A stretch of DNA of 44,023 nt from Singulisphaera sp. GP187 (lineage in GTDB: Bacteria > Planctomycetota > Phycisphaerae > Phycisphaerales > SM1A02): positions 1 to 44,023 of the forward strand of contig CAMBWI010000013.1 of NCBI GenBank assembly GCA_945871445.1, given 5' to 3'. The first letter of the stretch is position 1. Each line of letters starts with the position of its first letter. The notes below the pieces were generated by a model, which did not search any database, was not told the DNA's origin, and worked only from the letters and a program-made list of their open reading frames with translations. Both the position numbers and the translations under genes were made by a program. This document shows, piece after piece, positions 35,582-37,843 of this stretch.

Positions 35582-36937
35582 TCAGATTTCTTCGGCTTTT
35601 CGCGGTGGTATGTCTTTTCTCATGGACATGAATCCAATGAGCCCGACCACATTGATCAGGAAACAGAGAAAGAAGAACCACGCACCCCAGCCGGCTTTCG
35701 CCATGGGGTAATACAGCGCAACCGCAAGAAACGGAGCGATTGCGCCTCGAATGCCGTTGAGAGTTACATGGAGGGCCATATATTCGCTGTCGCGGTGGGA
35801 AGGTGCAAAGTCGTGATGCCCCAAATTCCATGCGAGTGATCCTCCGGCGAATCCCAGCCCAAGCAAGACACTTGCAAAGTACATAAGCCAAAGTGAATCG
35901 AGCAGCGTCGCCAACCACATCGCCAATGCGGCAAGCACGAATGTCCAACCGTGGACGGATCGAAATGCGACAACATGATTCTTCGCAAGAAATCGAGACC
36001 AAGCGGGAATCGCCAAGGGCATTACGAGTAATGGAATGACTGTTGTGGCGAGAATGCCTTCTAAATATGAAGTATGAAATTGGTCGTTGAGCACAATGAC
36101 TTGTGGCGGACCGATCATCAGATTTCCAAGTCCAAAGACAGACATCCACCACATGAAGCGCGCATAGAAACGATCCTCGCGTAAAAGTGCCAAGAGTCTG
36201 CGCGGATCGAGTCGCGCGTTGCCTTGCTTTCGCCCATCTTGTTCCGCGCGCTGCAGTCGTCGTTGTCCGCGCAGTCGTACTTTTCTATAGATCGTATTTC
36301 CCGCAAATCCTGCCAGCGCGAGTACGGGATAGAGATATCGAAAACTATCTGGAGCAATATCCAATGACTCACCGATGACAAGTCCCGCAAGAGCAAGGAC
36401 GACAGCTTGCACCATCGCCATTTTTCCTGCGATAAGCGTGCGATTTGCACGCGGATAATTATTGCGCCAGACGGCTGTTCGGATGGTGATGACTCCTGTC
36501 CACGCTGCGCGCGAGATGAAGATCAATGCGGTTAATGCAAAGAGTCCGTACGAATTAATTGGGATGAACGCAACCAACACGACACACATACAAGTGACCA
36601 CTTGCAGTCTGCTGATGAACTGAACTTTTTTACGGCCATGTGCCAGTCCTTCCCAAATGAAACTGGTCAGGTTTGCGATGTTTGGTGCTGCGCTGACAGC
36701 AGCGACTGCAAAATCCAGTTCGGCTGGGCCGATCCCTGGAGCATCTGTAAACATTTTTTTAACGATGATTGCCATCGTTCCGCCTTCGAGCGCACCAAGC
36801 ATCAGAGGCAGCAGAAACCACGAGAAGAGTTCGCGTGCATAATTCGCACGAAGCATCGGCGGCAGTGAACGCGGATGAAATTCAGCGACAAAGTCGTTCA
36901 GTTTTGCGAAGAAGAAGCGAGTTCCAAAAATATGCAC
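35582..36937 (-). CDS. MFS transporter
   Basis: This 451-residue protein has about 12 hydrophobic segments. A soluble basic loop separates two halves near residue 225-245 (RKVRLRGQRRLQRAEQDGRK). The first half has FLLPLMLGALEGGTMAII and the second WWMSVFGLGNLMIGPPQVI. The C-terminus is basic (FMSMRKDIPPRKAEEI). The substrate cannot be inferred. GTG 36937 is used as start; later Met codons are possible, including one near residue 28. It lies upstream of rpsA in the same direction with 99 nt between. No adjoining gene suggests a pathway. Confidence 0.83.
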   Translation of the reverse strand: MHIFGTRFFFAKLNDFVAEFHPRSLPPMLRANYARELFSWFLLPLMLGALEGGTMAIIVKKMFTDAPGIGPAELDFAVAAVSAAPNIANLTSFIWEGLAHGRKKVQFISRLQVVTCMCVVLVAFIPINSYGLFALTALIFISRAAWTGVITIRTAVWRNNYPRANRTLIAGKMAMVQAVVLALAGLVIGESLDIAPDSFRYLYPVLALAGFAGNTIYRKVRLRGQRRLQRAEQDGRKQGNARLDPRRLLALLREDRFYARFMWWMSVFGLGNLMIGPPQVIVLNDQFHTSYLEGILATTVIPLLVMPLAIPAWSRFLAKNHVVAFRSVHGWTFVLAALAMWLATLLDSLWLMYFASVLLGLGFAGGSLAWNLGHHDFAPSHRDSEYMALHVTLNGIRGAIAPFLAVALYYPMAKAGWGAWFFFLCFLINVVGLIGFMSMRKDIPPRKAEEI

Positions 36938-37275
36938 AGGAATGTTTGGTCAAGATCGGTTGCGTCGAAACAGTTTGAGCAAGAGTAGGTAGGAACAGCG
37001 CCAGAGGTGAGTAAAGTGCTACAGTATTCCTGCGACGTCCGGTCCCGCCGGCGGCGATTGGCTGTCAAAGCGCTCGAACCTTGCACGAACCCACGGGATC
37101 GCAGATCTGCGACGAAGATCAAGCCTCCGGCCTTGCGCCGAGTGGAAGATCGGGATCGACGGACTTCGAACCCACCTGCGAGTTGGGTTCGAGCTCACTG
37201 GTCAATTTGTGTCGGCGATCTTCGGATCTCGACCTCGAGCTCGCTCGAACTGCCCGGCGGGACCAGACTTCGCAT
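36938..37275. other. 338-nt spacer with inverted-repeat element
   Basis: No gene was found. Its right two-thirds (37033-37272) is a 240-bp element closed by a 19-bp near-perfect inverted repeat; the left 95 bp, next to the MFS start, should hold its promoter. Plus-strand open frames here look like shadows. Confidence 0.65.
37033..37272. repeat. 240-bp element bounded by 19-bp inverted repeats
   Basis: CGACGTCCGGTCCCGCCGG (37033-37051) pairs with 37254-37272 at 17 of 19 positions. Inside are a 14-bp palindrome (37099-37112, centred on AGATCT), a perfect 9-bp hairpin TCGAACCCA/TGGGTTCGA (37166-37174 / 37184-37192) and a GAAGATCG/CGATCTTC pair (37145-37152 / 37215-37222) that encloses it. The right arm begins 4 nt after the HIT stop. 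It could be a structured RNA, a MITE-like element, or a composite terminator. Confidence 0.6.
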
Positions 37276-37797
37276 TTACAGCACAGCGCTACGAAGCATC
37301 TTCAAACTTTGTTCGAGAGATTCTGGCACGACACGAACTTCTCCAACAGTCGCCATGAAATTTGTATCGCCTCCCCAGCGTGGCACGACATGCACATGCA
37401 AATGTTCCGGCAATCCTGCGCCTGCGGCACGACCTTGATTCAATCCGACATTCACTCCTTGTGGGTGCAGTCCGCGTTCGACAAGGCCAACGGCGATATC
37501 GACAAGCGCCCACAATTGCGCGCGTTGTTCGGCGGAGTAATCCATCAATGTCGGCCGAGGATCGCCCAGTGCAATCAGCACATGCCCATTTGCGTACGGA
37601 TATCGGTTGAGCATGATCAGTCCGTGCGCATTTCGAAAGACAACATGGTGAGCGAGATCATTGTCCTTGTCGTCCCATGCTGCGCGTAGAAAATTTGTTG
37701 GAGTCGAGACGCCTGCAGTGCGGATGTCAGCTTCGCGCGATTCGAGTTCACGCAGATAAGACATTCTCCAAGGTGCCCAAAGATTTCGATTAGCCAT
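37276..37797 (-). CDS. HIT family protein
   Basis: This 173-residue histidine-triad protein belongs to the branch with an LWAPWRMSYL N-terminus. The triad is HLHVHVVPRWGGDTNF near residues 137-153, and GVNVGLNQGRAAGAG precedes it. HIT proteins hydrolyse or phosphorolyse nucleotide-type substrates such as Ap4A or adenylate conjugates; the precise substrate is unknown. ATG 37797 was chosen over an upstream start because MANRNLWAPWRM is the conserved N-terminus. It is the last gene of the leftward ABC operon (46 nt after the permease), followed by the 240-bp element. Confidence 0.92.
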   Translation of the reverse strand: MANRNLWAPWRMSYLRELESREADIRTAGVSTPTNFLRAAWDDKDNDLAHHVVFRNAHGLIMLNRYPYANGHVLIALGDPRPTLMDYSAEQRAQLWALVDIAVGLVERGLHPQGVNVGLNQGRAAGAGLPEHLHVHVVPRWGGDTNFMATVGEVRVVPESLEQSLKMLRSAVL

Positions 37798-37843
37798 AGT
37801 GAACGATGTTAGAAGCACCGTGTCGAAAATGTGGAAAAGGGGA

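Follow-up and report, generated by a model that had tools for sequence, protein, structure and literature searches.

The palindromic spacer beside a planctomycete HIT gene is very probably a gene for a divergent 6S RNA

The 6S RNA of Escherichia coli and Bacillus subtilis occupies RNA polymerase, and a short pRNA copied from it refolds and releases it. In proteobacteria, the gene for this RNA sits by ygfA. For B. subtilis 6S-1, an excerpt of PMC8876501 describes a collapse helix in which the freed 3' strand of helix P2 pairs with the distal part of the 5' bubble; the same excerpt describes this release switch for B. subtilis and Aquifex, and names a hairpin in the 3' bubble as the release device of gamma-proteobacteria. 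Members of the B. thuringiensis group carry two 6S RNAs, according to an excerpt of PMC7726162. Among the Planctomycetota, an excerpt of PMC5673643, citing Wehner et al., states that no 6S RNA was found in Thermogutta terrifontis, and among open-licence papers no title or opening part of an abstract describes 6S RNA in Planctomycetes, Planctomycetota or organisms matching Phycisphaer.

The window analysed here is a stretch of 44,023 nt from a planctomycete assembly (GCA_945871445.1, contig CAMBWI010000013.1). We assign a probability of roughly 93% to the reading that a palindromic, GC-rich spacer within it is the gene for a divergent 6S RNA, encoded on the + strand at about 37031-37274. These ends are estimated from an outer closing stem, and the assignment draws on the Rfam 6S family RF00013, on a covariance model of related sequences (R2) and on covariation of the outer stem. 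The RNA would be about 244 nt long, compared with 187 positions in the RF00013 model. It is convergent with the gene for a HIT-domain protein (37276-37818, - strand, Pfam PF01230) and divergent from an MFS transporter gene (35582-36937, - strand, Pfam PF07690).

A first-pass annotation had pointed to an element rich in GC and TCGA, 4 nt from the HIT stop codon, closed by a 19-bp inverted repeat and enclosing a 9-bp perfect stem, and all of these features were borne out. Between the arms 37033-37051 and 37254-37272, 17 of 19 positions are paired. Across 200 dinucleotide-preserving shuffles of the surrounding 500 bp the best value was 15, and among 175 overlapping 500-bp tiles across the window only the tile at 37000 reaches 17. 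The helix can be extended to 37031-37051/37254-37274, with 19 of 21 positions paired. The perfect stem is formed by 37072-37080 and 37186-37194, and the HIT gene ends at 37276, 4 nt past 37272. GC content is 0.63 in the element versus 0.51 in the window (0.3% of 240-bp stretches are equally GC-rich), and seven copies of TCGA amount to 29 per kb versus 11 per kb, a density matched by 2% of 240-bp stretches. The segment 37020-37290 has a predicted folding energy of -114.2 kcal/mol (z -3.2; 1 of 200 shuffles equally good). Since the predicted fold of the opposite strand is even more stable (-121.1 kcal/mol), folding energy does not decide the strand.

Within the outer stem (5' arm 37031-37051, 3' arm 37254-37274, both placed by pairing and covariation), the single-sequence fold predicts a second, weaker closing stem between 37056-37065 and 37197-37207. 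The 5' strand of P2 (37072-37080), the presumptive pRNA template, lies beside the central bubble, is paired in 96% of alignment cells and takes its role from the description of P2 in the excerpted PMC8876501. It is followed by the 5' central bubble (37081-37094, from the Rfam alignment, pairing and folds), which contains the putative collapse-helix strand 37086-37093, and by the terminal arm (37095-37173), in which the alignment of relatives reveals the conserved blocks GGGAUCG, CAAGCC and GGAAG. The 3' central bubble strand (37166-37174) could form a 9-bp hairpin with 37184-37192, as judged by pairing. The P2 3' strand GGTTCGAGC (37186-37194) belongs to a segment, 37184-37194, defined by pairing and folds, in which it is overlapped by the collapse-helix partner 37184-37191. 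Two side hairpins are predicted in the 3' half (37211-37233 and 37235-37248) from the fold of the window sequence, and by eye the relatives appear to form hairpins in this region too.

At curated cut-offs, Rfam gave no match anywhere in the window. When the threshold was relaxed to E<=5, a single one of 4227 families matched: RF00013, at 37043-37221 on the + strand, with 26.7 bits and E 0.0011, below the family's cut-off of 46.4 bits, which is an annotation threshold and not a biological feature. Across 41 genomes (the window's own and 40 relatives), RF00013 matched at E<=1 in 13 and exceeded the cut-off in three, all from the same order (G040, 69.2 bits; G033, 57.3; G029, 47.3). In a genome of the same family and another genus, G019, the RF00013 match reached 38.5 bits and adjoins HIT as it does in the window. 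A further link came from alignment A3 and the model R2 built on it, which comprise eight sequences from other families of the order and exclude the window's own family. They are the three sequences over the cut-off, four below it (G031, G039, G037, G028) and G032, which RF00013 does not report and which was first noticed through its similarity to the window. R2 finds the window at 37064-37204 on the + strand with 85.5 bits (E 3e-19) and has no match above 10.9 bits on the opposite strand. Because R2 contains no sequence from the window's family, it ties accepted 6S RNAs to this element almost independently of the element itself. The structured-RNA reading of the first-pass annotation, which had mentioned a 6S-like shape as unproven and proposed a covariance search, is thereby upheld in its 6S form, by the sub-threshold RF00013 match, by its over-threshold relatives together with R2, and by the covariation described below. 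As judged from sequence and covariation, the likeness to 6S RNA is one of homology and goes beyond mere shape.

A second model, R1, was built from 20 sequences and used to follow the RNA more widely; its score at the window is no test, since the window is among those 20. R1 matched in 29 of the 41 genomes, at exactly one place each. In a sample of the window's family it gave exactly one match in each of 135 of 151 genomes, covering 91 of the 98 genomes of good quality and 44 of 45 genera. Five of the seven good-quality genomes that yielded no match belong to the window's own genus, which contributes 10 of the 151 sampled. The RNA is thus encoded by one gene per genome and conserved in the lineage, though 8 of the 19 genus genomes lack it. 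In the same family sample RF00013, applied at E<=0.01 with stricter filters, matched in 28 of 151 genomes and exceeded its cut-off in none; by eye, all 28 sub-threshold matches coincide with places found by R1. In a sample of the phylum, R1 matched in 16 of 195 genomes and RF00013 in 99, with 52 over the cut-off. The window itself was not reported by RF00013 in either of these larger searches (195 phylum and 151 family genomes). Given the 99 phylum genomes, 6S RNA is common in Planctomycetota; the novelty here lies in a divergent branch. In another family of the same order, f2, neither R1 nor RF00013 matched in G025, G030, G034, G038, G189, G212 and G216, and R1 did match in the eighth genome listed, G193.

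Covariation of the core was measured on alignment A4, in which 58 loci were fitted to the model and 55 distinct rows counted. L085 (an R1 match at a HIT locus), L126 (a match cut by a contig end), weak phylum matches (L175-L177) and repeats of other loci are left out. Over 25 core pairs, 97% of cells hold standard pairs and both sides change in 14 pairs, counts that lean towards the structure as A4 was fitted to the model. On each of five measures the observed value was reached by 0 of 500 shuffles, which ignore kinship, and pairing drops from 97% to 22-52% when partners are slid. The outer stem was assessed in the 11 sequences from the genus, which we read as three or four independent lineages. 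Here, 92% of cells are paired, versus 24-44% when slid, and both-sided change occurs at 10 of 21 pairs. None of 500 shuffles, again ignoring kinship, reached the observed number of paired cells, of cells changed on both sides or the covariation score; the other two measures, the number of both-sided pairs and of further pair types, were reached by 12 and 332 of 500, respectively. Individually, the 11 sequences have 19 to 21 of the 21 positions paired, and in all 11 the longest unbroken helix between the core flanks is the outer stem. For G012, the optimum duplex shows this stem out of register, yet its arms pair at 19 of 21 positions. In G019 the corresponding longest helix is 12 bp and has other letters. 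In the aligned sequences, closing helix, central bubble and terminal arm are thus conserved by compensatory change. Loss of base pairing in relatives, which the first-pass annotation had named as refuting its proposal, is contradicted by this compensatory change and by the 19-21 of 21 positions paired.

The association with HIT extends beyond the window. Among 80 HIT loci, 38 have an R1 match, all 3' of HIT, within about 430 nt in 34 cases and at 1.2-2.1 kb in four; the orientation is convergent in 29 and same-strand in nine. The remaining 42 loci are not all true absences, since no more than 3 kb of flank was covered and some contigs stop short of that. In two further genomes of the same family, a 6S match lies 5' of HIT on the same strand (G021:C18:12578-12729 and G022:C6:15700-15845). 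In the other families of the order, 6S RNA is on a different contig from HIT in all 12 genomes, among the 41 searched, that have an R1 match. Four HIT loci (L080, L103, L104, L061) stem from records with odd titles, naming Bacteroidia, Vicinamibacteraceae, Leptolyngbya and Singulisphaera; these might be misnamed MAGs, and their HIT proteins are 58-90% identical to that of the window. Scans with consensus models found neither a promoter nor a terminator at the element. By eye, a -10-like hexamer is present in all 11 genus sequences, as TACAGT 5 nt before the outer stem in seven (37020-37025 in the window, + strand) and as TATCGT 7 nt before it in four. At 6S loci elsewhere in the order, unlike the window, inspection by eye showed a TATAAT box upstream (L048, L049, L054, L056) and a hairpin with a T run downstream (L048, L049, L051, L056).

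The positional data bear on the possibility that the element acts on the - strand as a 3'-UTR stabiliser or terminator of the HIT mRNA. The element does end 4 nt beyond the HIT stop, and its - strand folds well. However, R2 finds the conserved sequence on the + strand and not on the - strand, which encodes HIT; in 9 of 38 loci the RNA lies on HIT's own strand; in 12 of 12 genomes from other families it is on another contig altogether; and no terminator was found. We therefore regard the mRNA 3' end protector suggested by the first-pass annotation as very improbable. The same annotation's MITE-like insertion deserves next to no credence, even though a compact element with a 19-bp terminal inverted repeat and a GC content above its surroundings is what such a mobile element might look like. 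Within its own genome, the element has a single match at E<=0.001; five further matches at E<=1 are weak, and of the four listed, all of them short, none is better than E 0.285 and two are the arms matching each other. R1 never found more than one match per genome, relatives carry the RNA at the same junction, and the terminal arms change their sequence yet keep pairing. No repeat directly adjoins the element in the flanks inspected, and the pair of TACAG motifs near its ends is no target-site duplication since the right-hand copy is missing in G011. A single copy, which the first-pass annotation had listed among its refuting observations, was indeed found but is expected of 6S RNA.

The assignment to 6S RNA might also be questioned within the class of rod-shaped regulators. 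Ms1, described in an excerpt of PMC9130861 as structurally related to 6S RNA, binds core polymerase and not the holoenzyme, and the low direct score of the window against the Rfam 6S model would be compatible with a different RNA of this kind sharing the 6S rod. This seems very improbable to us, if a shade less so than the two readings just discussed, because RF00013 is the only Rfam family matching the window and same-order relatives above the RF00013 cut-off provide a strong link. Coding sequence was considered as well; among the relatives, the 5' bubble and the apical part vary in length by one to several bases, which speaks against it. We conclude that the spacer is very probably an ordinary element in kind, a divergent but genuine 6S RNA gene.

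By analogy with studied 6S RNAs, this RNA would mimic an open promoter and, under nutrient shortage, hold the housekeeping RNA polymerase holoenzyme. Once nutrients return, the 5' bubble and the P2 5' strand would serve the polymerase as template for a short pRNA. This pRNA would begin A/AAGGUUCGAGC, its start probably opposite U37081/U37082, near where the Rfam alignment places it, and would displace the P2 3' strand. The freed strand would then re-pair with the 5' central bubble (37086-37093 with 37184-37191), and the resulting collapse helix would help eject the RNA from the polymerase. In the sister group of the same genus, folding models predict that the 3'-bubble hairpin takes the place of the collapse helix.

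The strand around GGTTCGAGC (37184-37194) has three possible partners: 37072-37080 in P2 (9 bp), 37086-37093 in the collapse helix (8 bp) and 37166-37174 in the 3' hairpin (9 bp). The collapse helix was scored per sequence and not by alignment columns, as lineages differ by one base in its register. Pairing potential was computed for 49 of the 58 A4 rows, those identical in both segments being dropped, and a helix of 7 bp or more can form in 41 rows for P2, 40 for the collapse helix and 31 for the 3' hairpin. When partners were permuted among rows, ignoring kinship, none of 2000 permutations reached the own pairing for P2 or the collapse helix, and 44 of 2000 did so for the 3' hairpin; letter shuffles reached it in 0 of 200 for all three alike. 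Matched changes are exemplified by GAACCTCAA/TTGAGGTTC (L171), GAACCCCTA/TAGGGGTTC (L154) and AAACCCCAA/TTGGGGTTT (L157).

We also predicted folds of the core, leaving off the outer stem, with the P2 5' strand blocked (55 of 58 A4 rows, identical sequences dropped). With the strand free, P2 leads in 45 of 55 rows and is not preferred in 10. Upon blocking, the main partner of the 3' strand becomes the 5' bubble in 44 of 55 rows, among which is the window with 8.7 expected pairs; the other 11 rows favour the 3'-bubble hairpin. These 11 include all four rows from the sister group within the genus (L071, L072, L073 and L070, from G002, G005, G008 and G010). A collapse helix that would become available once P2 opens is thus supported by pairing potential and by predicted refolding, the latter in 44 of 55 rows with the window among them. 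Either device may therefore be the working one, depending on the lineage.

Of 19 genomes in the genus, 11 carry the RNA and eight lack it (G001, G003, G004, G006, G013, G014, G015, G017; loci L178-L185). HIT and MFS are adjacent on one contig in all eight, 21 to 158 nt apart by tblastn ends; in the 11 genus genomes with 6S RNA and in G019, the corresponding gap measures 312 to 405 nt. Whole-genome searches of the eight, which are 80-96% complete, found no 6S match. A remnant gene was considered and rejected: a search of the eight loci with filters off gave a best match of 12.1 bits (E 0.31), and none of the 32 matches listed fell within a HIT-MFS junction. In G015 (L184, about 2815-2972), the 158-nt gap, the longest among these genomes, holds by eye a short GC-rich palindromic stretch, and no 6S match was found there. 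Trees were built under LG+G4 from five proteins neighbouring the locus. A single clade of the genomes lacking the RNA, a group set by presence and absence after an earlier tree had been seen, was rejected (p-AU 4e-49). G018, which has the RNA, groups with four genomes that do not (100/100 support), in agreement with the earlier tree. Parsimony requires at least three changes on the tree, a count that does not tell gain from loss; counted as losses only on the earlier tree, there would be five.

Taken together, we tentatively propose, at slightly worse than even odds, a composite picture with two parts. In it, the 6S RNA of this family would possess a three-partner strand that combines the Bacillus-type and gamma-proteobacterial release devices, most members relying chiefly on the collapse helix and some on the hairpin. 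In addition, one freshwater genus would have discarded 6S RNA several times independently, leaving sister species with and without it at an otherwise unchanged locus.

Several consequences follow for the study of 6S RNA in this phylum. The standard covariance model is blind to the 6S RNA of a whole family, so that an annotation of 'absent' in this group is unsafe. The locus further offers comparative evidence for a collapse-helix release switch, and the repeated absence in one genus provides matched species pairs for asking when 6S RNA is dispensable.

In comparison with described systems, the element resembles 6S RNA/SsrS (RF00013) in its rod, central bubble, P2-like helix, terminal arm and conserved sequence blocks. 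It differs in that its family stays below the RF00013 cut-off (0 of 151 genomes above it), in its longer outer stem and predicted side hairpins, and in a gene that is often 3' of HIT. The ability of the P2 3' strand to switch to the distal 5' bubble, with 7 bp or more in 40 of 49 rows, is shared with B. subtilis 6S-1; unlike 6S-1, the window would also allow a 9-bp hairpin in the 3' bubble, the gamma-proteobacterial device of the excerpted PMC8876501. As in E. coli 6S RNA, the P2 3' strand may instead join a 3'-bubble hairpin, which could reach 7 bp or more in 31 of 49 rows; here, that hairpin is weaker against permutation (44 of 2000) and preferred by blocked folds in 11 of 55 rows. With Ms1 RNA of Actinobacteria, as excerpted from PMC9130861, the element shares a 6S-like shape, and it is set apart from Ms1 in that the window matches no Rfam family other than 6S RNA.
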